A DNA stretch of 64,000 bases, taken from positions 1-64,000 of the forward strand of contig PKTM01000026.1 in NCBI GenBank assembly GCA_002869145.1, given 5' to 3'. The notes under the pieces are model-generated. The model did not search any database and had not been told where the DNA came from. It saw only the letters and a program-made list of their open reading frames with translations. Positions within the stretch are counted from its first letter, which is position 1. The number at the start of each line of letters is the position of its first letter. Of this stretch, positions 1,063-12,204 are shown piece after piece. The stretch comes from Denitrovibrio sp. (lineage in GTDB: Bacteria > Chrysiogenota > Deferribacteres > Deferribacterales > Geovibrionaceae). The position numbers were made by a program, and so were the translations under genes.

Positions 1063-1112
1063 TTTTACTCCATTTATGTTTTTTGTTGTTCAATTTTAAT
1101 TATATACTTTTT

Positions 1113-1198
1113 CTATAGATTTAGTGAACAATATAACCTATACTCATATCTGTCAATGACTTTTTTTTAATTGAAATAATAAATAAGTAATCTATAGT
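1113..1198. promoter_or_regulatory. Divergent cysK/rrf2 promoter region with paired CTATAGATT sites
   Basis: CTATAGATT at 1113-1121 is exactly inverted by AATCTATAG at 1189-1197. On the + strand TTGAAA (1171-1176) and TATAGT (1193-1198), 16 bp apart, form a plausible sigma-70 promoter for the Rrf2 gene, with one copy of the repeat on its -10. On the minus strand the other copy sits just upstream of a TATAAT-like box at about 1099-1104 that could serve cysK. The two copies therefore look like operators for the divergent regulator. This is read from sequence only; Rrf2 sites vary between families. Confidence 0.4.
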
Positions 1199-1223
1199 TG
1201 TATTGATACGGAGGTATCTGCCT

Positions 1224-1688
1224 GTGTTCTCTATGAAAACGGTTTATGCGCTAAGAGCTTTGCAATTTCTTGCTGAAAAATATGAAACAGGGCATGTCCT
1301 GATTAGTGTAATTTCAGAAAATGAAAAGATTCCGAAAAAATTTCTGGAAACAATACTGCTGACACTTAAAAATGAAGGACTCCTAACGAGTAAGATAGGA
1401 AAAGGTGGAGGCTACATATTGGCGCTCCCGCCGTAACAAATACATCTTGATGCTGTTGTTAAAGCACTTGAAGGTGATATAGCACTTATTTCATGTGCAG
1501 ACAGCGAAAACGGTTCAAATAAATGTGAGCACTGCGAAAGTTACAACACGTGCGGAACAAGACTCGTAATGACATCCCTTTCACAAGAACTAGCCATGTC
1601 ACTGAAAAACAAAACTGTAAAAGACCTGTTAGAAGAAGCCAGAACTGCCAGACAGCAAAGCTCCGGTTCATATGACTACATGATCTGA
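1224..1688 (+). pseudogene. Rrf2-family (CymR/IscR-like) regulator with one in-frame stop
   Basis: Reading from the GTG at 1224 (GGAGG at 1210-1214, 9 bases upstream) gives a 154-codon Rrf2 protein interrupted by a single TAA at 1434-1436. The first part (70 codons) has the winged-helix typical of Rrf2: MKTVYALRALQFLAEKY, then IPKKFLETILLTLKNEGLL, and a wing ending GGGYILALPP. After the stop the same frame continues QIHLDAVVKALEGDIALI and a three-cysteine motif, CEHCESYNTC, with a further Cys nearby, as in cluster-binding or CymR-type members, ending SYDYMI. Family alignments usually have Glu right after the double Pro, so GAA to TAA would explain the stop. Without readthrough the dimerisation and cysteine region is lost. 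An alternative start is ATG 1233, but its ribosome-site spacing is poor. Confidence 0.8.
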
Positions 1689-1806
1689 TTTCTTATCATT
1701 TCTATATTTTAATTATTATATATTTTTAAAAAAATCTGTAACCATTCTAATCTCCGTTCGTTATGTAGTCAAATAACGTGTGATACACAAAATACGGAGG
1801 TTCAGA

Positions 1807-2556
1807 ATGAGAAAGTTTTTTACAGTGATTTTTGTTATAATGATCGCAGTTGCAATGAGCTCAGTGGTATATGCCAAAGGTGGAAAAGGTCACTCTGGCG
1901 GAATGGGTTCAGCAGGCGGAGCAAGCTCTTCTGGCGGAACGGGCGGAAGCTCAAGTTCTGGCGGAATGGGTTCAGCAGGCGGAGCAAGCTCTTCTGGCGG
2001 AATGGGTTCAGCAGGCGGAGCAAGCTCTTCTGGCGGAATGGGTTCAGCAGGCGGAGCAAGCTCTTCTGGCGGAATGGGTTCAGCAGGCGGAGCAAGCTCT
2101 TCTGGCGGAGCGGGCTCAGCAGACGGCGCAAGTTCTTCTGGCGGAATGGGCGGAAGCGCTTCATCCGGCAGTAACGGCGGTTTTGGTGCAATGGGAGCAG
2201 ATGCAGACCATGAGCCAGGCACAGGCATAGACACTGATGGCGACGGAGAAGCTGACACATTTGGCGGATTCCAGGGTATGAACGAAGATACAGACCGTCA
2301 GCCCGGTTCAGGCTACATGGGTGGAACAAACCCTGACTACGACCCTGCTACTGACACAAAAATGCTCGATCTAGGTGCTACATATAACGATGGAACATGG
2401 ACTTTTCCTGACGGAACAGAACATGTACCCGGAAGCGGTGATATGATAGGAATAGGTGCTGGTGACGGAACAATGCCGCGCCCACAAAATGGAACAGGAT
2501 TCGGTAATAGATGGATCGATGCGGATACAGAAGAAGGCTTCTCTACTGCAGGCTAA
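1807..2556 (+). CDS. Secreted Gly/Ser-rich repeat protein 1
   Basis: The 249-residue protein starts at ATG 1807 (GGAGG at 1796-1800) with a clear signal peptide, MRKFFTVIFVIMIAVAMSS, ending near VYA-KGG. Residues about 30-112 are a low-complexity Gly/Ser/Ala tract built from 12-residue units of the type GGMGSAGGASSS. The second half is different: it is acidic and aromatic, with DTDGDGEADTFGG resembling an EF-hand or thrombospondin type 3 calcium loop, and repeated (D/E)xxxxPGSG phrases. No enzyme domain is visible. It is first in an apparent operon with an ECF sigma factor, an anti-sigma factor, a lipoprotein and a second Gly/Ser-rich protein. I infer an exported, possibly surface or matrix, structural protein; function is unknown. 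Confidence 0.8.
   Translation: MRKFFTVIFVIMIAVAMSSVVYAKGGKGHSGGMGSAGGASSSGGTGGSSSSGGMGSAGGASSSGGMGSAGGASSSGGMGSAGGASSSGGMGSAGGASSSGGAGSADGASSSGGMGGSASSGSNGGFGAMGADADHEPGTGIDTDGDGEADTFGGFQGMNEDTDRQPGSGYMGGTNPDYDPATDTKMLDLGATYNDGTWTFPDGTEHVPGSGDMIGIGAGDGTMPRPQNGTGFGNRWIDADTEEGFSTAG
1897..2139 (+). repeat. 36-bp in-frame tandem repeats in Gly/Ser-rich gene 1
   Basis: The 36-bp unit beginning GGCGGAATGGGTTCAGC occurs at 1897-1932 and then as four identical head-to-tail copies at 1960-2103. A diverged copy follows at 2104-2139, and a shorter 27-bp variant lies between the first two copies. Each unit encodes 12 residues, so copy-number change keeps the frame. The near-identity at DNA level points to recent duplication or gene conversion. 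Confidence 0.9.
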
Positions 2557-2573
2557 TTTAGCAGAATAACAGA

Positions 2574-2599
2574 GGCGGGGAGCATAAACAGCCCCCGCC
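2574..2599 (+). promoter_or_regulatory. GC-rich hairpin between repeat gene 1 and sigma factor
   Basis: GGCGGGG (2574-2580) pairs with CCCCGCC (2593-2599) around a 12-base loop. It is followed by TTAAAATGG rather than a T run. It lies in the 59-bp gap between the first structural gene and the ECF sigma gene. It could act as a partial terminator or mRNA-end stabiliser that lets the secreted protein be made in excess over the sigma factor. It could also be a plain terminator. Confidence 0.5.
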
Positions 2600-2615
2600 C
2601 TTAAAATGGATTAAG

Positions 2616-3101
2616 ATGAACGATAAACGGCTTGTCCGGAAATTTTTCGAAGAGAACAGCGGTAAGCTTTTTGCATACATGCTGAAGATGGCTGGGAACA
2701 GAGACGATGCAGAAGACTGTTTTCAAGACTGCTTCATAAAGTATACCGAGAAATATCCCGACAAACTGAGTATGCCGCTTCTGTACACTGTGGCAAAGTC
2801 CATATGTCTGGACAGATTTCGTAAAAACAGAAGATATGAGCACTCAGAGGTAGATTCTGAAAGCACCTCACCGTCTCCTGAAGAGGCACTTATTTCGAAA
2901 GACGCTAATGCTTCTTTGAATAAAGCGATGAGTATGCTTGAAAAGGATGAGAAAGAACTCCTTGCCCTCGCAGGGCCACAAGGGCTTAAGTATTCCGAGA
3001 TATCAGAGATAACAGGGCTGAGTATAGCAAATGTTAAAGTTAAAATACACAGAGCAAGACAAAAACTGAAAAAGAACCTTGGAGAGATGAACTATGCATG
3101 A
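2616..3101 (+). CDS. ECF RNA polymerase sigma factor
   Basis: This 161-residue protein has only the two sigma-70 domains of an ECF factor. Region 2, about residues 5-70, contains the NRDDAEDCFQDCFIKY helix and the VAKSICLDRFRK segment that contacts the -10. Region 4, about residues 100-155, holds the helix-turn-helix YSEISEITGLSIANVKVKIH followed by RARQKL, which reads the -35. Its last 8 bases overlap the start of the next gene, an anti-sigma-like membrane protein, indicating translational coupling. It probably drives this operon of secreted Gly/Ser-rich proteins. The inducing signal cannot be read from sequence. Confidence 0.93.
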   Translation: MNDKRLVRKFFEENSGKLFAYMLKMAGNRDDAEDCFQDCFIKYTEKYPDKLSMPLLYTVAKSICLDRFRKNRRYEHSEVDSESTSPSPEEALISKDANASLNKAMSMLEKDEKELLALAGPQGLKYSEISEITGLSIANVKVKIHRARQKLKKNLGEMNYA

Positions 3102-3672
3102 CGAGAAAGAAATACTTATCAGCCAGTTCATAGACAATGAGCTGAATCTGGACGAAAAGATAGAATTTGTGCAAGAGGTCAGACAGAGTGAAGATTTTAC
3201 TTCTGAAGCACTCGAAATGCTGGAGCAGGAAAAGCTTTTAGAAAAAGCTTATAACACCCCTGCCCCTTCATTGCCTAAGGCTAAACAAAAACCTAAGGTT
3301 ATAAAAGTATCTTTCGCTAACACTGCATCTTTGACAGCTCTTGCTGCATCTTTACTTTTGGTAGTAAAAGTCTTTTTCCTTACTCCTGAAACAATGCCAG
3401 ATAACAAAGAGCTCCACCGTTTTGTACTTCATATGCCCGGTGCTGAAAATGTTTCTGTTGCAGGATCTTTTTCTGCTTGGCAAAATATAAAAATGCAGCA
3501 GGCAGGCGGATCAGGATACTGGCAGGTGTCACTACCTTTGAGCGAAGGCGAACACACCTACTCTTTTATTGTTGATGGTAAAGAGCAGATGGCAGACCCT
3601 ACAGTTTCCGCAAGACAAATGGACGACTTCGGCGGCGAAAACTCAATATTAAAGGTGGGTGACAAGGTTTGA
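3094..3672 (+). CDS. Anti-sigma factor with glycogen-binding-like (CBM48/E-set) outer domain
   Basis: The 192-residue protein starts inside the sigma gene. Residues 1-70 are an acidic helical region (ISQFIDNELNLDEKIEF) like the cytoplasmic sigma-binding part of small anti-sigma factors. Residues about 76-97 are a single membrane helix (TASLTALAASLLLVVKVFFL). The outer part, residues about 105-190, resembles the AMPK-beta/CBM48 E-set fold: VSVAGSFSAWQ, a YWQVSLPLSEGEHTYSFIVDG strand pattern split by the usual turn, then a DDFGGENSILKV end. A carbohydrate-sensing anti-sigma factor is the natural reading, but binding of a glycan is inferred from fold resemblance only. Confidence 0.8.
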   Translation: MHDEKEILISQFIDNELNLDEKIEFVQEVRQSEDFTSEALEMLEQEKLLEKAYNTPAPSLPKAKQKPKVIKVSFANTASLTALAASLLLVVKVFFLTPETMPDNKELHRFVLHMPGAENVSVAGSFSAWQNIKMQQAGGSGYWQVSLPLSEGEHTYSFIVDGKEQMADPTVSARQMDDFGGENSILKVGDKV

Positions 3673-3977
3673 GAAAAGTTTTAATACTCGCAATTTTACT
3701 GATTTTTTACGGATGCGCCACAATGAGAGTGCAGCAAAATGACCAATCAGTGAAAATGAGCTTTAAAACAGAAGCAGAAGAAGTAATATTTTACAGTTCA
3801 GCGAACGGTTTCAAGCCTTTACAGGCCAGTAAAAACGGTGAATGGTGGACTGTTACAATAAATAATACAAAAAAGATGAAGTATTTTCTGAAAACAGATG
3901 AAAATATTTACATCCCTGAATGCAAAATGAAGGAGTTTGACGATTTCGGCGGCGAACTTTGTATTTATGAAAGGTGA
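3669..3977 (+). CDS. Small lipoprotein with E-set-like domain
   Basis: This 102-residue protein starts at TTG 3669, overlapping the stop of the anti-sigma gene, and begins MRKVLILAILLIFYGCATM with a lipobox ending in Cys16, so it is probably a lipid-anchored exported protein. The rest (VIFYSSANGFKPLQ, GEWWTVTI, KYFLKTDENIYIPE, then EFDDFGGELCIY) has the same strand order and the same DDFGGE ending as the outer domain of the preceding anti-sigma factor, so the two domains look homologous. It may be a partner or competitor for the same ligand. No direct function is known to me. Confidence 0.75.
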   Translation: MRKVLILAILLIFYGCATMRVQQNDQSVKMSFKTEAEEVIFYSSANGFKPLQASKNGEWWTVTINNTKKMKYFLKTDENIYIPECKMKEFDDFGGELCIYER

Positions 3978-3981
3978 TAAT

Positions 3982-5010
3982 ATGAAAAAGTTAATTATAT
4001 TAAGCATGTTAATTATTACGTCGGCAGGTTTAGCAAATGCCGAAACTATATATGAAAATCTTTACCAAAATGCTCTAAAAGCAGGTGTCAGTGAAAGCAC
4101 TTCCCGTATGCTTGCTGAAAGAACAGATAATGCCGGATTTAACGAACAGGACACTGCAAAAATATCAGAAGTAATCTCGGGTCTTTATAAAGCAGGCGCT
4201 CAAAGCGCAGCTGAAAAAGTTCTGGAAGGGATAGCGAAGAATATTGCTCCGGCAAGAATAACAAAAGCTCTTGAAAATGTACAAACAAGATATAACAAAG
4301 CTATGCAGATAGCTTCTCAGTCAGGAGTAGAAATGAAAAATCTAGAAACAGTTGCAGGTGTTCTTGCTGAGGCTATGGCTGCTGGGGCTGATGAGGATAA
4401 TCTTGCTCAAATATCAAAATCTATAAAAACAAAAGCAAGCGATAAAAACGACTACTCAGAGTCTGTTTTTGAGCTTTACAGAGATATGGTGCGTTATGGC
4501 GTGGACAACGATAAAACCTATGAGGTCACTACTAAGATGATGAATAACCTGACCAGCAACGAAATCAATAACCTTAAAACTAATTTTAATAAAAAAGCTC
4601 CGTACTCAAATGTTAATAATATGGCTGAAAGCATGGGTTATAATGCAGAGCAGGGGATGCGTGGATCATCTGGACAAGGAAGCATGGGTGGCTCTGGCGG
4701 TTCTGATGGTTCTGACGGTTCTGGAGGCATGGGAGGCTCAGGCGGCTCAGATGGTTCTGGCGGATCAGGCGGTTCTGGCGGAATGGGAGGTTCAGGCGGC
4801 TCAGATGGTTCTGGCGGAATGGGAGGTTCAGGCGGCTCAGATGGTTCTGGCGGAATGGGCGGATCAGGCGGTTCCGGAGGTTCTGGAGGCATGGGAGGCT
4901 CAGGCGGCTCAGATGGTTCTGGCGGAATGGGCGGATCAGGCGGTTCCGGAGGTTCTGGAGGCATGGGCGGATCAGGTGGTTCCGGAGGTTCTGGTGGTGG
5001 GAAAAGATAG
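3982..5010 (+). CDS. Secreted Gly/Ser/Asp-rich repeat protein 2
   Basis: This 342-residue protein starts at ATG 3982 (AAGGTG at 3971-3976) with a signal peptide MKKLIILSMLIITSAGLANA cut before ETIYEN. Residues about 21-225 are non-repetitive, charged and helix-rich with regular Ala/Leu spacing, perhaps an all-alpha domain. Residues about 230-342 are almost only Gly, Ser, Asp and Met in units such as GGMGGSGGSDGS, ending GGGKR. It closes the sigma/anti-sigma operon and shares the 12-residue Gly/Ser/Met period of the first protein in the operon. I infer an exported fibre- or matrix-like protein. No domain name is assigned. Confidence 0.8.
   Translation: MKKLIILSMLIITSAGLANAETIYENLYQNALKAGVSESTSRMLAERTDNAGFNEQDTAKISEVISGLYKAGAQSAAEKVLEGIAKNIAPARITKALENVQTRYNKAMQIASQSGVEMKNLETVAGVLAEAMAAGADEDNLAQISKSIKTKASDKNDYSESVFELYRDMVRYGVDNDKTYEVTTKMMNNLTSNEINNLKTNFNKKAPYSNVNNMAESMGYNAEQGMRGSSGQGSMGGSGGSDGSDGSGGMGGSGGSDGSGGSGGSGGMGGSGGSDGSGGMGGSGGSDGSGGMGGSGGSGGSGGMGGSGGSDGSGGMGGSGGSGGSGGMGGSGGSGGSGGGKR
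4777..5000 (+). repeat. 36/72-bp in-frame repeats in Gly/Ser-rich gene 2
   Basis: A 36-bp unit beginning GGCGGAATGGGAGGTTCAGG is present as identical copies at 4777-4812 and 4813-4848. A 72-bp unit beginning GGCGGAATGGGCGGATCAGG at 4849-4920 is largely repeated from 4921 onward. Period and phase (12 codons) match the repeats of the first gene in the operon although the base sequences differ. Confidence 0.85.
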
Positions 5011-5177
5011 CACCATAAAGACTACACAAAGCTGAAACATCATGTAATCACCACAGCCATAAAAAAATTGATAAAACAAACATCAATTAAACTTCGCAAA
5101 TGATAAAAGGATCATTTTTTCTATCTGCAAACAACGAATTAAGCTATTTAATTACTATTGATATTGCGTAATATCCT

Positions 5178-5504
5178 TTAATTTCTGGTAACGAGACACT
5201 CATGAGCTTTAGCACAGTCTTCACAGTTAAAAAAGTTTTTAATAGCACCTGTCACAGACTGAGGGCTGTTCTTATCAACAACAATAAGGGGTATATCGTT
5301 CTTTTTGCAAATATTTTTTGCCTTGTTTGCCATGTTATGGCTTGAGCAGGTTGTTAGAAGTACAACACAGTTAGAGCATTTTACTGACTTCTCGAAACTG
5401 CTGTTTAATGTATTAAAAACCTTAGCTTTGCAGCCAATATCTTTGAATGAATTCTTGTATTCTTTCTCCATCCTGCTAAGTCCGCCAACTACACTTACTT
5501 TCAT
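5178..5504 (-). CDS. DUF2325-family protein
   Basis: The 108-residue protein MKVSVVGGLSRMEKEYK has the pattern of DUF2325 proteins: a Rossmann-like start with VVGG, a central CSNCVVLLTTCSSHNMANKA with cysteines and an SHN motif, and a KKNDIPLIVVDKNSPQSV region. The tail carries a further CEDCAKAHEC cysteine cluster, suggesting metal or redox binding. It is transcribed alone, with a very good Fur box 26-44 bp upstream of its start. An iron-repressed role is inferred. The biochemical function of the family is not established. Confidence 0.75.
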   Translation of the reverse strand: MKVSVVGGLSRMEKEYKNSFKDIGCKAKVFNTLNSSFEKSVKCSNCVVLLTTCSSHNMANKAKNICKKNDIPLIVVDKNSPQSVTGAIKNFFNCEDCAKAHECLVTRN

Positions 5505-5529
5505 AACTAGCCTCCAATAATCATCTCTA

Positions 5530-5548
5530 TATAATGATTATCATTATC
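5530..5548. promoter_or_regulatory. Fur box upstream of DUF2325 gene
   Basis: TATAATGATTATCATTATC matches 17 of 19 positions of the classical Fur consensus, GATAATGATAATCATTATC, and is itself nearly palindromic. It lies between the minus-strand DUF2325 start (5504) and the end of the EAL coding region (5599), so it can only be in the promoter of the DUF2325 gene. Confidence 0.8.
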
Positions 5549-5598
5549 AATAAGCAAAGTCAAGTATAATATTAAGATTATATAACTCTTTTTTTACT

Positions 5599-6330
5599 TT
5601 ATTTGGAAATCTGCAGTTTGCGTCCGCTTTTCAAAAGCTTGATGGTATCTTCTTCGCTCATAGGTTTGGCAAAATAAAATCCCTGAATAAAGTCACAGTC
5701 CAGTTTCTTAAGATACTCCAGCTGACTCTTGTGTTCCACACCTTCTGCAATAACAAGCATTCCAAAGTTTTTGCCAAGAGAAATAATTGCATCTGTTATA
5801 TGCTGTTCGTCCTTGTTATCTGTCAGCTCTCTGGTGAAGGTTTTGTCTATCTTTATAATACTTATAGGAAATTCTTTAAGATAAGCCATTGATGAATACC
5901 CTGTGCCGAAGTCGTCCAGTGACAGTCTGGCTCCATAGGATTTCAACTCTTTCATAGTGTCGATGGCCGCTTTTACATCCTGAATAACAGTGTTCTCTGT
6001 TATCTCCAGAATGAGTTTGTGGGCGCGTATACCTGTTTTTTCTATAATATCTTTCACCTGATTAGGAAACACTGGGTTCTGAAACTGCCTGCTTGAAACA
6101 TTTACAGAAAAGCTAAGGTGTTCATAACCAAGCTTGTTTATCTTTTTCATTGTTTTACAGGTCTCGTTAAGAACAAATTGACCTATTGAATTTATTAGCG
6201 GGCTCTGTTCTGCCACATCTATGAAACTTCCCGGTAAAACAAGGGTTCCGTCGCTTTTCTTCCATCTGATCAGAGCCTCAAAACCTTTAATCTCGCCATC
6301 CCTTAAACTGACAACAGGCTGATAATACAT
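5599..6330 (-). CDS. EAL domain, separated from its GGDEF partner by one stop codon
   Basis: This is the cyclic-di-GMP phosphodiesterase half of what should be one 894-codon PAS-GGDEF-EAL protein. The frame upstream of the Met used here continues KREFV, RRALL and DL back to a TAA at 6367-6369, then straight into the GGDEF part. The EAL domain looks catalytically complete: FEALIRW, ILEITENTV, SLDDFGTGYSS, IIKIDKTF, VIAEGVEH and FIQGFYFAKPM are all present. The ATG at 6330 has a GAGAG about 6 bases upstream, so separate translation of a free EAL protein is conceivable. Otherwise this is a decayed 3' end. Confidence 0.8.
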   Translation of the reverse strand: MYYQPVVSLRDGEIKGFEALIRWKKSDGTLVLPGSFIDVAEQSPLINSIGQFVLNETCKTMKKINKLGYEHLSFSVNVSSRQFQNPVFPNQVKDIIEKTGIRAHKLILEITENTVIQDVKAAIDTMKELKSYGARLSLDDFGTGYSSMAYLKEFPISIIKIDKTFTRELTDNKDEQHITDAIISLGKNFGMLVIAEGVEHKSQLEYLKKLDCDFIQGFYFAKPMSEEDTIKLLKSGRKLQISK

Positions 6331-6366
6331 TACGAACTCTCGTTTAAGAAGTGCTCTGCGTAAATC

Positions 6367-8283
6367 TTATTCTAGCCCAAGTTTGTCAATATCGGATGTA
6401 TCCATCGACTTGTCATAAATAACGAAGTTTGCCTTCCCTTTTTGTTTTGCCTGGTACATGGCCATATCCGCAGCCCGCAGCAGGTCTGATGCCTCAGTTC
6501 CGTCTTTAGGGTAAAAAGATATACCTATGCTGGCGGACGGTTGAAGCCTGAAGTCATTAATAACGATAGCATCTGTAAAACTTTCAAATATTCGTTTAGC
6601 AACGTTTACTGCGCTATCTTCTGTCTCAGCATCAGGCAGCAAAATAACAAACTCGTCACCGCCTACCCTTGAAACAGTATCTTCTTCTCTGCAAGAATCC
6701 TGTAGAATACCGGCTATCTTCTGAAGATATATATCTCCAACGTGATGCCCGGCGGCATCATTTATGTGTTTAAAATTGTCTATATCTATGAAAATAATAG
6801 CTAATTTTGTTTTATGTCTGGTCGAAAATGCCAAAGCTCTCTCTATCCTGTCATGCAGCAGCCCTCGGTTAGGAAGTCCAGTCAGTCCGTCATGGTATGC
6901 CTGATGCTTCAGCTGCTCTTCATTTTGCTTAAGCTCTGTTATGTCATGGCTTACAAGTACAAAGTGCTGTATATTGCCGTCATCATCTTTAATGGTTGTT
7001 GCAGACACCCACTCAGGATATATCTCGCCATTTGACTTTTTACTCCAAACTTCACCAGACCATCTGCCATTTTTGAAAAGTTCCTTCTGAATATTGTAGT
7101 AAAAGGACTGAGGATGTTTTCCGGAGCGCAGTATCCGTGTTGTTTTACCTATTATCTCCTGAGGCAGATAACCTGTAATTTCTGTAAAAGCAGGGTTTAC
7201 TTTATCAATAACACCTTTGTTGTTCGTTATCACAATGCTCTCTACTGCTGTGTCAAAGATAATGCCCGTAAGCAGAAGCTGCTTTTCATATTCCTTTCTG
7301 TGTGTAATATCCCTGAAAATACCTTCTATAGCTGTGGGGTTGCCTACTGAATCAAATATAACCTTGGTGTTCATCTCTACTATCACAGGCGTGTTATCCT
7401 TTTTGCGAAGCCTTATCGCATAGTCTTTCACTTCTCCTTTTTCAGCAAGAGTTCTCAGAAATTTTGTGCGCTCTGCTTTGTCATAAAACATGCTCTGTCC
7501 AAGGCCATAGCGCTTCATCTCGTCTTCGTCATTATAGTCCAGAAGCTTAACTCCCGAAGGGCTTATAAGAGTGAGATTCCCGCGAATATCAGTACTGTAC
7601 TGAACATCCATAATGTTTTCAAACAGCGAACGAAACTTCTTCTCACTCTCTTTTACAGCGTCTTCTGAAACTTTCTTTTTTATAATATAATAAAACATAT
7701 AAAAGAATATGAACATTATGATGCCGCTGAAGATAACCATGTAGTAAGAGTTATATGAGAAATTTGAAATATCTATAAGCGCCCTTCTGCTTAAGGCGAC
7801 CTTATAAAAGGAGTTTATCTCACCCTCTTTCCATCTCGTGTGACATCTTGTGCAGTAAGCACTTGTAGTTACCGGGAAGTAGTAAGTATTATTGACCATG
7901 TCTGATATCTGAAGTTTATCGCTTAGTCCAATAACATTACTGTCATTTGTACCTTTTTTATCGTTATCAGATGAGTAAATAATCTTTCCCTCAGGCTTAA
8001 CAAGAGAAAATTCGTCAACATATTCATACTCTCCTATCTCATTAAGAAGATTGGTGAAAAGTCTCATATTGCCTTTTTTAAGAGAGTCATATGTGCTGCT
8101 GAAGATCATGTCCTGCAGATAGCTCATGTATCCTGTAAGTGATTTTTCTATAACCTGAAGTTTTTTGCGCTCGTATGCAATATTGAGCAAAACAAGGCAA
8201 ATAATTAAGAATGCAGCAAGCATTGCTAATATGATCTTTGAATCCAAATGTTTTGCAAATTGTTTGATTTTATACACGTACAA
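6367..8283 (-). CDS. Membrane heme-PAS-PAS-GGDEF diguanylate cyclase
   Basis: Residues about 17-37 and 181-202 are membrane helices enclosing a periplasmic domain that carries one c-type heme motif, CTRCH, at 144-148. Two PAS domains follow (about 213-330 and 338-455), then a GGDEF domain (about 460-623) with an intact GGDEF at 541-545 and an RxxD inhibitory site (REED, 532-535). It therefore should make cyclic-di-GMP. The likely start is TTG 8283, touching the stop codon of the hydrogenase small subunit (ribosome site AGAGG), so it belongs to the hydrogenase operon. The frame ends in TAA at 6367-6369, beyond which an in-frame EAL domain continues. A sensor for redox state or hydrogenase electrons is inferred. 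Confidence 0.88.
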   Translation of the reverse strand: MYVYKIKQFAKHLDSKIILAMLAAFLIICLVLLNIAYERKKLQVIEKSLTGYMSYLQDMIFSSTYDSLKKGNMRLFTNLLNEIGEYEYVDEFSLVKPEGKIIYSSDNDKKGTNDSNVIGLSDKLQISDMVNNTYYFPVTTSAYCTRCHTRWKEGEINSFYKVALSRRALIDISNFSYNSYYMVIFSGIIMFIFFYMFYYIIKKKVSEDAVKESEKKFRSLFENIMDVQYSTDIRGNLTLISPSGVKLLDYNDEDEMKRYGLGQSMFYDKAERTKFLRTLAEKGEVKDYAIRLRKKDNTPVIVEMNTKVIFDSVGNPTAIEGIFRDITHRKEYEKQLLLTGIIFDTAVESIVITNNKGVIDKVNPAFTEITGYLPQEIIGKTTRILRSGKHPQSFYYNIQKELFKNGRWSGEVWSKKSNGEIYPEWVSATTIKDDDGNIQHFVLVSHDITELKQNEEQLKHQAYHDGLTGLPNRGLLHDRIERALAFSTRHKTKLAIIFIDIDNFKHINDAAGHHVGDIYLQKIAGILQDSCREEDTVSRVGGDEFVILLPDAETEDSAVNVAKRIFESFTDAIVINDFRLQPSASIGISFYPKDGTEASDLLRAADMAMYQAKQKGKANFVIYDKSMDTSDIDKLGLE

Positions 8284-9236: not shown

Positions 9237-10613
9237 CTAATGAACCGCACAAGCTACGCACGGATCGAAGCTTCTCACTATTCTACCAGCAACAATACTA
9301 CTGTCTTCTTTATCAATTACACTGCCGTTAAGTGCGCCTTCCACTATCCCAGGTTCTTTTATTCCGGGACCGAAGTTCCATGTGGACGGAACTATCATAT
9401 TATAACCTTCTATTTTGCCGTCTTTTACTATTGTTTTATGGTAAAGCATCCCTCTGGATGCTACAGATAATGCAGTACCTTCACCTGTTAGCATAATTGA
9501 AAGATCAGGGTTATTTATTGTGGATTCGTTCAGTCTGTATCTGTTCAAAATTTCACTTACATAATCCGCTATCTCTATTGATTCGGAGGCTCTGGAAAGT
9601 ATCCTTGTTGCCACTGAAGAGACATATGGATCAGTTTTATGTCTGGCACACATTTCGAAATATGTTTTACTTTTCTTAATAACAGCCCTTGCAACTGGTC
9701 CTGTCTCAAAGGACTGTCCGTTATATTGCGGTGTTTTTATCCAGCTGTATGCATTTTTCTTCTCAGGGTCAGGAAGGTTCTCATTTGTTATAAATGTAGA
9801 TGTGTTCACTTCTGCAATCATATCAGTATCAAGCGCACTTAAGACACCTTCACTGAAAACGCCCCCTTTAAAAAGAGGTTCGTCTAGCATTAAAAAAGAA
9901 TCAGCAGATATGAACCTCCCATATGAGATGCCTTTGTACCTGTACTCAGGAAAATAATCCAGGAGAATATCTGCATCACTCTTCATGGTTTTAGTGAGAA
10001 AATTATAAACATCATGTACAACACTGCGGATTTTCAGAAGCTTGTCGGGAGTTATGCTTGTAGTCACACCGCCTGGAAGCAAAGCGTGACAGAATGGCGT
10101 TTTTGCACCTATGGATGCCAGAGCCTCACCCAGATTACCACGCATATTTATAGCTGCCTTATAGTTATCTATAAAATTTGAAGTGAGTTCTTTCTCAGTT
10201 ATGAATTTTGCTTTAGCACTTGAGGAAAAATATCCTGATGTTTTAGAAAGAGCAGAAAAATCTACATAATCAGGAACCATTAGTTGGTAAAAATGTATCA
10301 TATGATCGCTGATAATGCTAAGTCCGAGTATTATATCTCTAAGAAGTGAACCGTTGAATGGGGGCTGTATCCTGTAAAGATCCTCCACTGCCATACAGCT
10401 AGCGACACCGTGCACTTCATGACAAACACCGCAAACCCTCTGTGTAATACGTACTGCGTCAAACGGATGCCTCCCTTTCAGAAAACTCTCAAACCCTCTA
10501 TACATTGTTCCTGCAAGCTTAGAGCCTGTTATTTTATTGTCAGAAATAGAGTAGTCGGCTTTCATGTGGCCTTCTATCCGTGTCAGAGGATCAACTTTTA
10601 TTCTTTCAGCCAT
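9237..10613 (-). CDS. [NiFe] hydrogenase large subunit without C-terminal extension
   Basis: The 458-residue catalytic subunit has both NiFe-binding motifs: RVCGVCHEVH with Cys61 and Cys64, and the C-terminal DPCVACAVH with Cys452 and Cys455. The Arg/His context resembles periplasmic group 1 enzymes. The protein stops exactly at the His after the second motif, so there is no peptide for the usual maturation endopeptidase to remove. This is typical of H2-sensing regulatory hydrogenases and unusual for energy-yielding ones. Export would depend on the Tat signal of the small subunit, whose gene begins 8 bases further on. No hyp maturation genes and no cytochrome b partner are in this window. Confidence 0.93.
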   Translation of the reverse strand: MAERIKVDPLTRIEGHMKADYSISDNKITGSKLAGTMYRGFESFLKGRHPFDAVRITQRVCGVCHEVHGVASCMAVEDLYRIQPPFNGSLLRDIILGLSIISDHMIHFYQLMVPDYVDFSALSKTSGYFSSSAKAKFITEKELTSNFIDNYKAAINMRGNLGEALASIGAKTPFCHALLPGGVTTSITPDKLLKIRSVVHDVYNFLTKTMKSDADILLDYFPEYRYKGISYGRFISADSFLMLDEPLFKGGVFSEGVLSALDTDMIAEVNTSTFITNENLPDPEKKNAYSWIKTPQYNGQSFETGPVARAVIKKSKTYFEMCARHKTDPYVSSVATRILSRASESIEIADYVSEILNRYRLNESTINNPDLSIMLTGEGTALSVASRGMLYHKTIVKDGKIEGYNMIVPSTWNFGPGIKEPGIVEGALNGSVIDKEDSSIVAGRIVRSFDPCVACAVH

Positions 10614-10794
10614 AAGCTCTCACCAATAATTTTAAAATCTCTTTGTTTATGTCTAGTTAATATACAAACACAGTTATACTATATCAACATATATTTCATA
10701 ATAATACCTGTTTTGGAAGAATATAAGAAAGTTATATTGTAACTTACACAAAGTTAACCTATTCTTTCCTTAGGCAGTATTTCGGGAGGATGAG

Positions 10795-12204
10795 ATGAGA
10801 AAAACTAAAATTGTGGCCACTCTGGGGCCTTCTTCTTTCGACAAAGAGACCATATCATACATGATTGATGCCGGAGTAAACGTTTTCCGGTTTAACTTTT
10901 CACACGGAACCCACGAAAAACATGGCGAGATGATTGACCTTGTCAGAGGAATCGCGAAAAACAAAGAAGTTTGCGTAAGCGTTTTACAGGATCTTTGCGG
11001 ACCAAAAATCAGACTGGGCATTCTTCCCGAAGACGGAATAAGACTAAACCCTGGAGACACATGCGTGCTGAGCTCTGAAGGTAACGAATCCGAAGGTGAG
11101 ATACCTGTTCAGTATGATGGCCTTGAAAAAGACCTTGTTGTGGGTGATAGAATTCTTCTGGCAGATGGCGCTATGGATCTTATGGTAGAAGACATAAAAG
11201 GCTTAAAGGTGCATTGCCTCGTTTTGAACGGCGGGATTGCACTCTCTAAAAAAGGTGTAAATATGCCAACCACAAACCTTAGTGTGGTTGCTTTCACAGA
11301 TAAAGACAGACAAGACCTTGAGTTTGGTCTTAAAAAAGGTGTGGATATGGTAGCTCTCTCATTTGTGAGAAGTGCTGCAGATTTGAAAGACATCAAAGAG
11401 ATGATAGCAAACGATCCCAGCCAGCCTCTTTTAATTGCAAAGATTGAAAAACCCCAAGCGGTTAAAAACATGGAAGAAATTCTCACAATGGTAGATGGTG
11501 TTATGGTCGCCAGGGGAGATTTGGGCGTAGAGATGTCCCTATATGAAGTCCCTGTCATCCAGAAAGAGATAATAAGCAAAGCACGCAGAGAGGGGAAAGT
11601 AATTATCACCGCTACTCAGATGTTAAAAAGTATGGTAACAAACTACCGTCCAACAAGAGCGGAGTGTACTGATGTTGCAAATGCAATATTTGACGGTACA
11701 TGTGCGGTCATGCTTTCTGAAGAAACTGCTTCAGGTCAATATCCAGTGGAGGCGGTTGCTGTTATGGAGAGGATAGCCCTCTCTACCGAGCCACACGTTC
11801 AATATAAACTTGATGTTTCAAGCGATGAACATATTTCAGACAAAAGTGTTGCGTGGGCAGTGGGACGCTCTGCAAGCTGGCTTGCGAAAGATCTGAACGC
11901 AAAGGCTATAGTGGCATACACAAACTCCGGCTTCACAGCGAGAAGCGTCTCCCGCTTCAGGCCTTCATGTCCTATTATTGGTCTTACGCCAAACGAAAGC
12001 ACTTTCAGACAGCTTAATATTTTCTGGGGTGTACAGCCGGGACTTAGTAAAAGTTTTGAGGATTCCGACGAAATGTTCTCTTCTGCTGCTTCGATAGTTG
12101 TTGAAAAAGGAATTGCTCAAAAAGGTGATACAATTATAATTACATCAGGAATACCATTGGGAGCAAAAGGGTCTACAAACCTTATAAGGGTTTATGAAAT
12201 ATAA
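10795..12204 (+). CDS. pyk: Pyruvate kinase
   Basis: Converts phosphoenolpyruvate and ADP to pyruvate and ATP in the cytoplasm. The 469-residue length is standard. The start MRKTKIVATLGPSS is characteristic, followed by FRFNFSHGTHE, the catalytic-lysine region LIAKIEKPQAV, the metal and active-site segment VMVARGDLGVE, ITATQMLKSM and the NAIFDGTCAVMLSEETASG block. The C-terminal domain, from about residue 350, includes AIVAYTNSG and ends IRVYEI. GGGAGG precedes ATG 10795. It stands alone between the hydrogenase operon and the nif island and appears to be an ordinary metabolic gene. Confidence 0.97.
   Translation: MRKTKIVATLGPSSFDKETISYMIDAGVNVFRFNFSHGTHEKHGEMIDLVRGIAKNKEVCVSVLQDLCGPKIRLGILPEDGIRLNPGDTCVLSSEGNESEGEIPVQYDGLEKDLVVGDRILLADGAMDLMVEDIKGLKVHCLVLNGGIALSKKGVNMPTTNLSVVAFTDKDRQDLEFGLKKGVDMVALSFVRSAADLKDIKEMIANDPSQPLLIAKIEKPQAVKNMEEILTMVDGVMVARGDLGVEMSLYEVPVIQKEIISKARREGKVIITATQMLKSMVTNYRPTRAECTDVANAIFDGTCAVMLSEETASGQYPVEAVAVMERIALSTEPHVQYKLDVSSDEHISDKSVAWAVGRSASWLAKDLNAKAIVAYTNSGFTARSVSRFRPSCPIIGLTPNESTFRQLNIFWGVQPGLSKSFEDSDEMFSSAASIVVEKGIAQKGDTIIITSGIPLGAKGSTNLIRVYEI

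Follow-up and report, generated by a model that had tools for sequence, protein, structure and literature searches.

A predicted autoregulated ECF sigma/anti-sigma operon with two CBM48-type domains and Gly-rich exported proteins

Five adjacent genes in the window (the 64 000-nucleotide stretch of DNA analysed here) probably form, to judge from their sequences, an autoregulated operon for ECF sigma/anti-sigma signalling whose regulon is very small and nearly closed. Four of them, encoding the sigma factor, an anti-sigma factor with an outer CBM48 domain, a CBM48 lipoprotein and the protein g5, are by gene order and alignment one conserved cassette in two phyla. No description of the set of five genes was found in the searchable open-access literature. 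An earlier note on this DNA had placed the genes in this order with overlaps inside, and all five open reading frames are present where it put them. The features, all on the + strand, are as follows.

1737–1763, +: predicted ECF promoter TGTAAC-N16-CGTTA (−35 and −10 elements), one match in the window
1807–2556, +: g1, open reading frame of 249 aa, exported Gly/Ser-repeat protein
2574–2599, +: RNA hairpin between g1 and sigma, without a U-run (folding against shuffles)
2616–3101, +: sigma, open reading frame of 161 aa, ECF sigma factor
3094–3672, +: anti-sigma, open reading frame of 192 aa, 8-nt overlap with sigma
about 3319–3378, +: hydrophobic segment of the anti-sigma, single (19-residue hydropathy)
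about 3415–3660, +: outer CBM48/AMPK-CBM domain of the anti-sigma (profile match)
3669–3977, +: lipoprotein, 102 aa, TTG start, 4-nt overlap with anti-sigma
3982–5010, +: g5, exported helical-repeat protein, 342 aa counted from the ATG at 3982
about 4042–4665, +: helical domain of g5 (AF2 model)
about 4681–5007, +: Gly/Ser-rich tail of g5 (composition)

No terminator was found 3′ of g5, and no known RNA family reaches its gathering score within 1100–5300.

The sigma factor matches PF04542 (Sigma70_r2, 34.1 bits) and PF08281 (r4_2, 45.3 bits), both above cut-off, and TIGR02937 (86.3 bits, cut-off 42.9). The anti-sigma factor matches PF16561 [AMPK1_CBM, E = 4.3e-12, 46.5 bits (cut-off 26.8)] and PF02922 [28.7 bits (cut-off 22.4)], and by profile the AMPK β-1 CBM in the PDB (E = 1.8e-12). 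The proposal that its outer domain is of the CBM48/AMPK type is thus borne out by profile match; the fold was predicted for the paralogous lipoprotein instead. A hydropathy of at least 1.6 over 19 residues is seen in 95 of 97 anti-sigma factors, and none of the 97 has the CxxC of ZAS (zf-HC2) proteins in its first 80 residues. No known anti-sigma domain model of Pfam or NCBIfam scores over cut-off with the window protein, which presumably binds sigma. An M50 protease is present, but says little because all 14 controls have one too. We take Trp100, Lys126, Trp133 and Asn150 to be the glycogen-contact positions of AMPK β. When the equivalents are located by pattern rather than structure, Trp100 and Asn150 are present in 97/97 anti-sigma factors, Trp133 is Trp in 0/97, and Lys126 is Lys in 1/97 (5 unread), and so lost in at least 91/97. 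With two of the four contact positions lost, AMPK-like glycogen binding is rated lower, and glycogen-type sensing by this domain appears doubtful.

The lipoprotein is, according to its model, a second CBM48-fold domain and a paralogue of the outer domain of the anti-sigma factor, a relationship new here. It has no Pfam match above cut-off. Its AF2 model (mean pLDDT 89.3) superimposes on the AMPK CBM 1z0n_B with a VIA Z-score of 12.3 (r.m.s.d. 1.5 over 78 residues, 12% identity), and hhalign matches it to the anti-sigma alignment at E = 8.3e-17; the latter value is independent, unlike the lipoprotein/anti-sigma E-values from the iterated-inclusion profiles of the phylum loci. The lipobox cysteine (Cys16), which follows a hydrophobic start, is invariant in 23/23 rows of the phylum alignment and 40/40 rows of the wider one; the wider alignments each hold 40 chosen sequences, and ‘invariant’ there refers to those rows. 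Two further cysteines, Cys85 and Cys98, flank a DDFGG motif. They are likewise invariant among the 40 rows chosen for the lipoprotein, and in a set of 93 lipoproteins the pair is complete in 90; the exceptions are L103 and L125, without the first, and L120, which is short.

The genes at both ends had been described as encoding exported low-complexity repeat proteins; this holds for g1, but g5 is mostly a helical domain to which a Gly/Ser-rich tail is attached. Residues about 20–230 of g5 form eleven helices in the AF2 model (mean pLDDT 93.5), and the final 109 residues are Gly/Ser-rich. The tail, of 20–109 residues, is present in 23/23 aligned g5 sequences. Compared with PDB folds, the g5 model gave no match at E ≤ 0.001. 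In the VIA comparison a designed helical repeat came first (Z = 10.1), a value within the chance level for helical models, so g5 may yet have a known fold. A collagen-like adhesin of the SclA/SclB kind was considered and rejected, since the scores of 17.7 and 15.9 bits fall below the respective NCBIfam cut-offs of 325 and 400.

The order sigma/CBM48 anti-sigma/lipoprotein/g5 is kept in 23/23 uncut loci of the phylum of the window, where anti-sigma identity is 34–62%. Relatives were found with an alignment as query, a single-protein query giving no matches. From 390 relatives the wider scan retained 80, among them six (L053–L058) that by name are genomes of the phylum set; the same order is seen in 71 of the 80 and in 65 of the 74 outside that set, which are by name mostly Desulfobacterota. 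Among the nine outside loci without the full order are L076 and L080, both ending at contig ends. In 50 genomes searched, anti-sigma occurs in 24 and g5 in 23, the single difference being a contig cut; G008 is truncated by the end of its contig and does not figure in the phylum alignments. The conserved order that the earlier note had asked for is seen well beyond the window, and its view of a dedicated, self-contained unit is supported.

The g1 protein has a signal-peptide-like start and one DGTG motif close to its C-terminus, and its gene contains a 36-bp tandem repeat in 5.4 copies. A g1-like gene, recognized by position, composition, signal-like start and motif rather than full-length homology, precedes sigma in 20/24 phylum loci (not in G015, G016, G017 and G001), with DGT/DGS-type motifs in 17 of the 20. 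The hairpin reported 3′ of g1 is confirmed (−19.1 kcal/mol, z = −3.7, equalled by 0 of 200 shuffles). GC-rich hairpins lie in the same place in all 20 phylum loci with a g1-like gene (coordinates compiled by hand); their letters differ, z ranges from −7.2 to −1.7, and that of G022 is folded in another form. In these predicted structures, a conserved hairpin sets g1 apart from the regulatory genes.

The guess that the ECF promoter lies at about 1736–1762 was a good one. TGTAAC-N16-CGTTA matches once in the window (0.04 expected), and this is also the single match of the strict pattern in the 2.88-Mb genome of the window. Since the strict pattern occurs once there, the regulon looks nearly closed, and the predicted regulon of sigma, resting on that pattern, is probably its own five-gene operon only. 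With two mismatches allowed, no wider regulon emerged in this genome: the pattern matched 16 times and its reversed control 23 times. A looser pattern with spacings of 15–18 matches in 43 of 49 phylum genomes, including those without the system, at about control level and is thus uninformative by itself. Upstream of the operon in the phylum, the strict form is found in 14/24 loci (shuffle mean 0.02) and the relaxed form in 21/24 (shuffle mean 0.09); G013, G012, G014, G009, G006, G007 and G008 have the relaxed form only, and G015–G017 a variant, TGTAAC-N16-CGTC.

Recurrence of the motif upstream of similar genes, proposed earlier as a check, is evident outside the phylum. Promoters were counted in the 69 of 74 outside loci that have 250 nt of sequence before them (five have less); g5 follows in 60 of the 69. 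Strict TGTAAC-N16-CGTT precedes sigma in 47/69 (0 in 100 shuffles), 16 being the sole spacing seen among 10–24, and stands before g5 in 26/60 (shuffle mean 0.03). Exported Gly-rich genes of the g1 type lie behind a strict copy in 31/74 outside loci, 27 of the 31 with DGT/DGS-type motifs. Sites facing such genes number 32/117, compared with 68/5850 random positions, which partly hit these same genes. The counts exclude L106, L108 and one L060 site, which proved to be g5; their manual removal lowered the loci from 33 to 31 and the sites from 35 to 32. There is no g1 in the G015 operon; searching that genome with nothing but the pattern led to a site that an unlinked g1-like gene follows after 57 nt. 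G017, of the same genus, has a 94% identical counterpart with a promoter site at equal distance, and G016 has no match to the G015 protein. By these pattern matches, one promoter type precedes the operon, often g5 again, and g1-type exported Gly-rich genes as well. Several strict sites elsewhere face other genes or no clear gene.

Pairs of an ECF sigma and a membrane anti-sigma factor with an outer sensor domain are known from the RpoE-RseA and RsiV types. The present system shares with them sigma regions 2 and 4, an overlapping anti-sigma gene, one membrane segment, an outer domain and a promoter motif preceding its own operon. It differs in that the outer domain is a CBM48/AMPK-CBM with a second CBM48 on an operon lipoprotein, that the cassette includes a helical protein with a Gly-rich tail, and that the regulon is seemingly limited to the operon and g1-type proteins. 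The RsgI-type anti-sigma factors of Clostridium thermocellum are polysaccharide sensors and also carry an outer carbohydrate-binding-type domain, but theirs is from another CBM family and the RsgI-type N-terminal domain is not among the Pfam matches here. The likeness to the AMPK β CBM is one of family by sequence and, for the lipoprotein, of predicted fold; in the present system its carriers are an anti-sigma factor and a lipoprotein, the Trp133 equivalent is missing, and that of Lys126 is missing in most cases.

In the signalling operon that we favour, the anti-sigma factor would sit in the inner membrane, its cytosolic part holding sigma and its CBM48 domain facing the periplasm. The lipoprotein may be a co-sensor or a competitor for the same ligand, and the helical domain of g5, as a third component in the periplasm, probably partners the CBM domains or is their ligand. 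A periplasmic or outer-membrane signal would free sigma, probably by regulated proteolysis, and freed sigma would make more g1, g5 and both sensor proteins. Fresh lipoprotein and anti-sigma would then bind ligand or sigma and close the loop. The hairpin may keep g1 mRNA plentiful relative to that of sigma, and the exported output, whether it stays in the envelope or leaves the cell, is likely to be g1 together with the g5 tail. Such a simple, nearly closed circuit, kept in two phyla and combining few outputs with a pair of matched sensor domains and a predicted promoter, would be a clean case for what CBM48 senses outside the cytoplasm, for the role of exported DGTG/Gly-rich proteins and for whether cells gauge the assembly of their own surface material. 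Many unannotated Gly-rich exported proteins of sulphate reducers would also gain a predicted regulatory home.

That the sensor monitors an outer polymer, as the earlier note suggested, fares less well. A CBM48 anti-sigma factor that binds an outer glycan while g1 and g5 build or bind the polymer is consistent with the CBM48/AMPK-CBM family or fold in both sensor proteins, with the conserved Trp100 and Asn150 equivalents and with outputs that are exported and Gly-rich. In family f4 a GH57 1,4-α-glucan branching enzyme gene adjoins g5 on the opposite strand (G013 and G014, 2/2 tested); in G012, of the same family, a similar-looking gene, judged by look, is next to g5. This neighbour was seen in one family only, and together with the lost Trp133 and Lys126 equivalents and the fact that CBM48-fold domains can bind proteins too it leaves the polymer sensor unlikely. 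An envelope-stress switch whose products protect instead of forming a structure, with g5 as a binding protein or scaffold in the periplasm and g1 secreted for protection, is also rather unlikely. It would suit a mostly folded helical g5, and autoregulation with an outer sensor domain is usual in envelope-stress ECF systems; however, the operon is the sole strict promoter site in the genome of the window, so that genes for chaperones, proteases or envelope biogenesis are not preceded by one there. A chance neighbourhood of unrelated genes is hardly credible, given the shared promoter and an order held over two phyla despite the divergence of the anti-sigma factors within one.

The remaining readings draw on eight distant relatives from the phylum of Desulfosarcina, namely the nine best partial matches by CBM score less G117. 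As in the cassette, a CBM anti-sigma and a g5-like gene are clustered, within about 0.7 kb of each other in 8/8, with sigma beside them in 7/8. A zf-HC2 N-terminus is found in two of three anti-sigma factors tested. These modules differ from the cassette in that none has TGTAAC-N16-CGTT (L264 has a spacing of 15 and CGTA), that the Trp133 equivalent is Trp in 6/9 CBM domains, that the Gly-rich tail is absent from the three g5-like proteins examined in full (L260, L263 and L264), and that genes with 7 to 18 CxxCH adjoin the sigma, anti-sigma or g5-like genes in 5/8. The helical domain thus accompanies CBM anti-sigma factors even without the tail. This clustering, the missing tail in those three and the co-occurrence of g5 and anti-sigma over the 50 genomes argue for g5 as a signalling part, its helical domain being a periplasmic ligand or regulator of the anti-sigma factor and its tail a later addition. 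Against it, g5 often has its own promoter copy, as an output would, the tail is retained throughout the phylum alignment, and the g5-like and anti-sigma frames of L266 and L267 do not directly abut; we hold this role for g5 to be possible, at somewhat under an even chance. Quite unlikely, in our estimate, is the wider proposal of an undescribed ECF superfamily in which CBM48 serves protein recognition, the CBM domains of anti-sigma and lipoprotein competing for g5 and so gauging an exported Gly-rich assembly, with coupling to cytochromes in relatives. If true, a cell would make more Gly-rich product only when outside assembly runs short, and the same sensor set would be coupled in relatives to other surface assemblies (multihaem cytochromes).

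Cell-surface electron transfer, with relatives driving multihaem cytochromes and g1 and g5 replacing or supporting such parts, is very unlikely. ORFs with at least 4 CxxCH are absent from the flanks of all 74 close outside loci and of 21/24 phylum loci, including that of the window, and the eight relatives were chosen by CBM score. The related sensor set is linked to multihaem cytochrome genes by neighbourhood: both of the distant ones tested match Paired_CXXCH and Cytochrome_C7. Of the phylum loci, that of G010 has an opposite-strand gene with 8 CxxCH immediately following g5, and ORFs with 4 CxxCH lie some kb away in G019 and G023.

The window's genome comprises 2.88 Mb in 29 contigs. The five genes at 1807-5010 of the window all run in the same direction, with overlaps between the sigma and anti-sigma genes and between the anti-sigma and lipoprotein genes; the lipoprotein gene starts with TTG at 3669. 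Regions 2 and 4 of the ECF sigma factor are both over the Pfam cut-off. The first gene (g1), the lipoprotein gene and the last gene (g5) have no family model over cut-off among Pfam and further family models.

g1, first gene of the operon (+): exported Gly/Ser-repeat protein with a 36-bp repeat in 5.4 copies

A DTDGDGEAD stretch inside g1 (window 2230-2256) resembles a calcium-binding loop. A long open frame elsewhere in the same genome (1063 aa, G000:C28:108073-110595) gives weak matches to g1, probably through low complexity. Two interrupted genes flank the operon: just 5' of it, at 1203-1688 (+), a frame with the look of an Rrf2-type regulator contains one in-frame stop and, 3' of it, at 5599-8283 (-), a protein that looks to be of GGDEF/EAL type, with a CxxCH motif in its N-terminal part, is split by one in-frame stop. 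The interruptions reflect either decay or assembly error.

The gene order described in the earlier note, for which relatives offered the check, is conserved both within the phylum and beyond it. The anti-sigma factor is present in 24 of 50 phylum genomes (9 of 19 genera) and an independent search finds g5 in 23 of the same 50, the difference arising because one contig (genome G008) ends within the anti-sigma gene. Neither was found by this search in the sampled genomes of families f6-f9 or in genomes G011, G002 and G003. All 23 uncut phylum loci have sigma, anti-sigma, lipoprotein and g5 in this order, with overlaps or short gaps. Upstream of sigma, a Gly-rich exported gene that is g1-like (by position, composition, signal-like start and motif rather than full-length homology) is found in 20 of the 24 phylum loci, and DGT/DGS-type motifs occur in 17 of these 20; the four loci with no such gene there are those of G015, G016, G017 and G001.

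To look beyond the phylum, we scanned 84,980 species genomes with an alignment and took forward the best 80 of 390 relatives. Six of these 80 belong to the phylum set; nearly all of the other 74 (outside loci) carry titles of sulfate reducers or further deltaproteobacterial groups, a few being just 'Proteobacteria' or 'uncultured bacterium'. Searched with their own profiles, sigma and anti-sigma are found in 80/80 of these best relatives and all four genes in order in 71/80, corresponding to 65/74 outside loci. Among the nine loci without the full order, L076 and L080 break off shortly behind the last gene detected, L121, L124 and L128 have g5 5' of sigma (L128 also being without a lipoprotein match), L066 and L067 match neither the lipoprotein nor the g5 profile, and L070 and L107 have no match to the g5 profile. 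An even sample of 148 genomes from the phylum of Desulfosarcina alkanivorans contains 7 with a near-full-length anti-sigma match (E < 1e-49) and a further 63 with weaker matches only, mostly to the CBM part; the system is therefore widespread, far from universal.

The TGTAACC / CGTTA pair, which the earlier note had put forward as an ECF promoter to be checked by recurrence near similar genes, recurs before phylum and outside operons and is a candidate for binding by the sigma factor. Its pattern matches just once in the window (0.04 expected) and just once in the genome as a whole, where a looser -10 with fixed spacing likewise gives one match. Phylum operons carry the motif upstream in 21/24 cases in a relaxed form and 14/24 in the strict form TGTAAC-N16-CGTT (shuffle means 0.09 and 0.02); the three loci without a relaxed match (G015-G017) have TGTAAC-N16-CGTC. 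Of 69 outside loci, 47 have the strict form no more than 250 nt upstream of sigma, with spacing 16 only (0 in 100 shuffles), and 18 have it upstream of sigma on the opposite strand; before g5 it stands in 26/60.

Most of the divergent and downstream strict sites point towards the gene of a small, Gly-rich exported protein, in many cases with DGTG-type motifs. By a fixed rule and with g5 removed, a g1-like gene stands behind a site in 31/74 outside loci (32/117 sites vs 68/5850 random positions). In genome G015, whose operon has no g1, the promoter pattern alone led to a g1-like gene that lies about 0.94 Mb away from the operon and has the site 57 nt ahead of it. G017, of the same genus, encodes a protein 94% identical to its product on another contig, with the site equally far upstream, and no match to the G015 protein was found in G016 and four other genomes; given how closely G015 and G017 are related, the two together amount to one independent test only. 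Several observations count against a closed regulon: two-mismatch matches in the window's genome number 16, below the 23 of the reversed control, a looser pattern matches most phylum genomes at about control level, and in Desulfosarcina, Desulfoluna and some phylum genomes there are additional strict sites that face other genes or none that is clear. One two-mismatch site (L209, G000:C10:196205-196231, -) is located 59 nt upstream of the gene for a 152-aa protein whose start is signal-like; this may be chance. G015, G016 and G017 have, upstream of sigma, a divergently oriented gene for a lipoprotein-like product (about 250 aa) that faces a strict promoter copy. The distance from promoter to start of divergent g1-like genes is 118 nt in five outside loci (L060, L063, L077, L082 and L132) and 120-123 nt in six more, which suggests a long, constant 5' leader.

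A GC-rich hairpin follows the g1-like gene in all 20 phylum loci that have one, with differing sequence letters and z-scores of -7.2 to -1.7. The stem has 7 to 15 pairs in 19 of the 20, the program folding that of G022 otherwise. Most of the hairpins have no T-run. In G010 the hairpin leads into T residues and sigma has a second promoter copy immediately 5' of it, as expected if transcription stops at the hairpin there. The hairpin likely separates the dosage of g1 from that of the regulators.

The outer domain of the anti-sigma factor, likened earlier to glycogen-binding domains, is indeed CBM48 by profile (AMPK1_CBM 4.3e-12, CBM_48 1.7e-06, both over Pfam cut-offs); the predicted fold applies to the lipoprotein only. 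In hhalign, the alignment of lipoproteins matches that of the anti-sigma factors over the outer part of the latter (E 8.3e-17), and the predicted structure of the lipoprotein (mean pLDDT 89.3) places AMPK beta CBM chains on top in Foldseek (E 1.5e-4 for 5t5t_B, 1.8e-4 for 1z0m_B) and superimposes on 1z0n_B with a VIA Z of 12.3 and an rmsd of 1.5 over 78 residues. Alignment and predicted fold together indicate that the sensor domain exists in two copies, the lipoprotein being the lipid-anchored one; the extra cysteine pair of the lipoprotein is kept in 90/93. AMPK contacts glycogen through four positions, Trp133 and Lys126 among them. Two of the four are kept in 97/97 anti-sigma sequences; the Trp133 equivalent is lost in 97/97 and that of Lys126 in 91 of the 92 sequences read at that position. 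The next gene downstream of g5 in family f4 lies on the opposite strand and encodes a GH57 1,4-alpha-glucan branching enzyme:

L045 (G014), 5084-6661 (+): GH57 branching enzyme next to g5, on the opposite strand to g5
L043 (G013), 9892-11469 (-): GH57 branching enzyme next to g5, on the opposite strand to g5

With this neighbour and with the contact residues half lost, polymer sensing by the CBM48 domains is possible, though the residues do not point to it.

For the first 235 residues of g5 the structure prediction gives a high-confidence helical repeat (mean pLDDT 93.5), for which no PDB match was found at E<=0.001; the best VIA hit is a designed repeat protein with Z 10.1, a score that carries no meaning for helical models. 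The helical part is followed by a Gly-rich tail (20 to 109 residues) in 23/23. In G015 a further g5-like copy, broken into two pieces, lies outside the operon (G015:C1:628046-629003; L156, L158).

With the cassette, promoter, hairpin and predicted lipoprotein fold established by comparison, we propose that a periplasmic or outer-membrane signal would cause the membrane anti-sigma factor to let go of sigma, probably via regulated proteolysis; an M50 protease is present in the genome, but equally in all 14 controls. Freed sigma would raise its own operon, lipoprotein and anti-sigma would shut the loop, and g1 and the g5 tail would be the exported products. g5 itself may be output, ligand or both. 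The parts are of known kinds; no description of the gene set, of the paired CBM48 domains, of the g5 domain or of the small regulon was found in searches of open-access literature. An ECF group number for the sigma factor may already exist outside that literature.

Eight more distant loci with a CBM domain, taken from the nine best partial matches in the Desulfosarcina-phylum sample, all have a g5-like frame no more than about 0.7 kb from the CBM anti-sigma gene, and 7 of the 8 have a sigma gene. The anti-sigma N-terminus is zf-HC2 in 2 of 3 tested, and L261 has a lipoprotein-like CBM gene 5' of sigma as well. Multihaem genes with at least 7 CxxCH adjoin in 5/8:

L260, L262, L263, L264, L266: multihaem genes (7 to 18 CxxCH) beside sigma, CBM48 anti-sigma and g5-like genes

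This content suggests that sigma, CBM48 anti-sigma and the g5 domain are the core, and that lipoprotein, Gly-rich tail, g1 and cytochromes vary. Frames with at least 4 CxxCH were found in the flanks of none of the 74 close outside loci. Within the phylum, G010 (L039) has a multihaem cytochrome by Pfam, with 8 CxxCH, directly after g5 on the other strand (5194-6669, +), and G019 and G023 each have one ORF with 4 CxxCH some kb from the operon.
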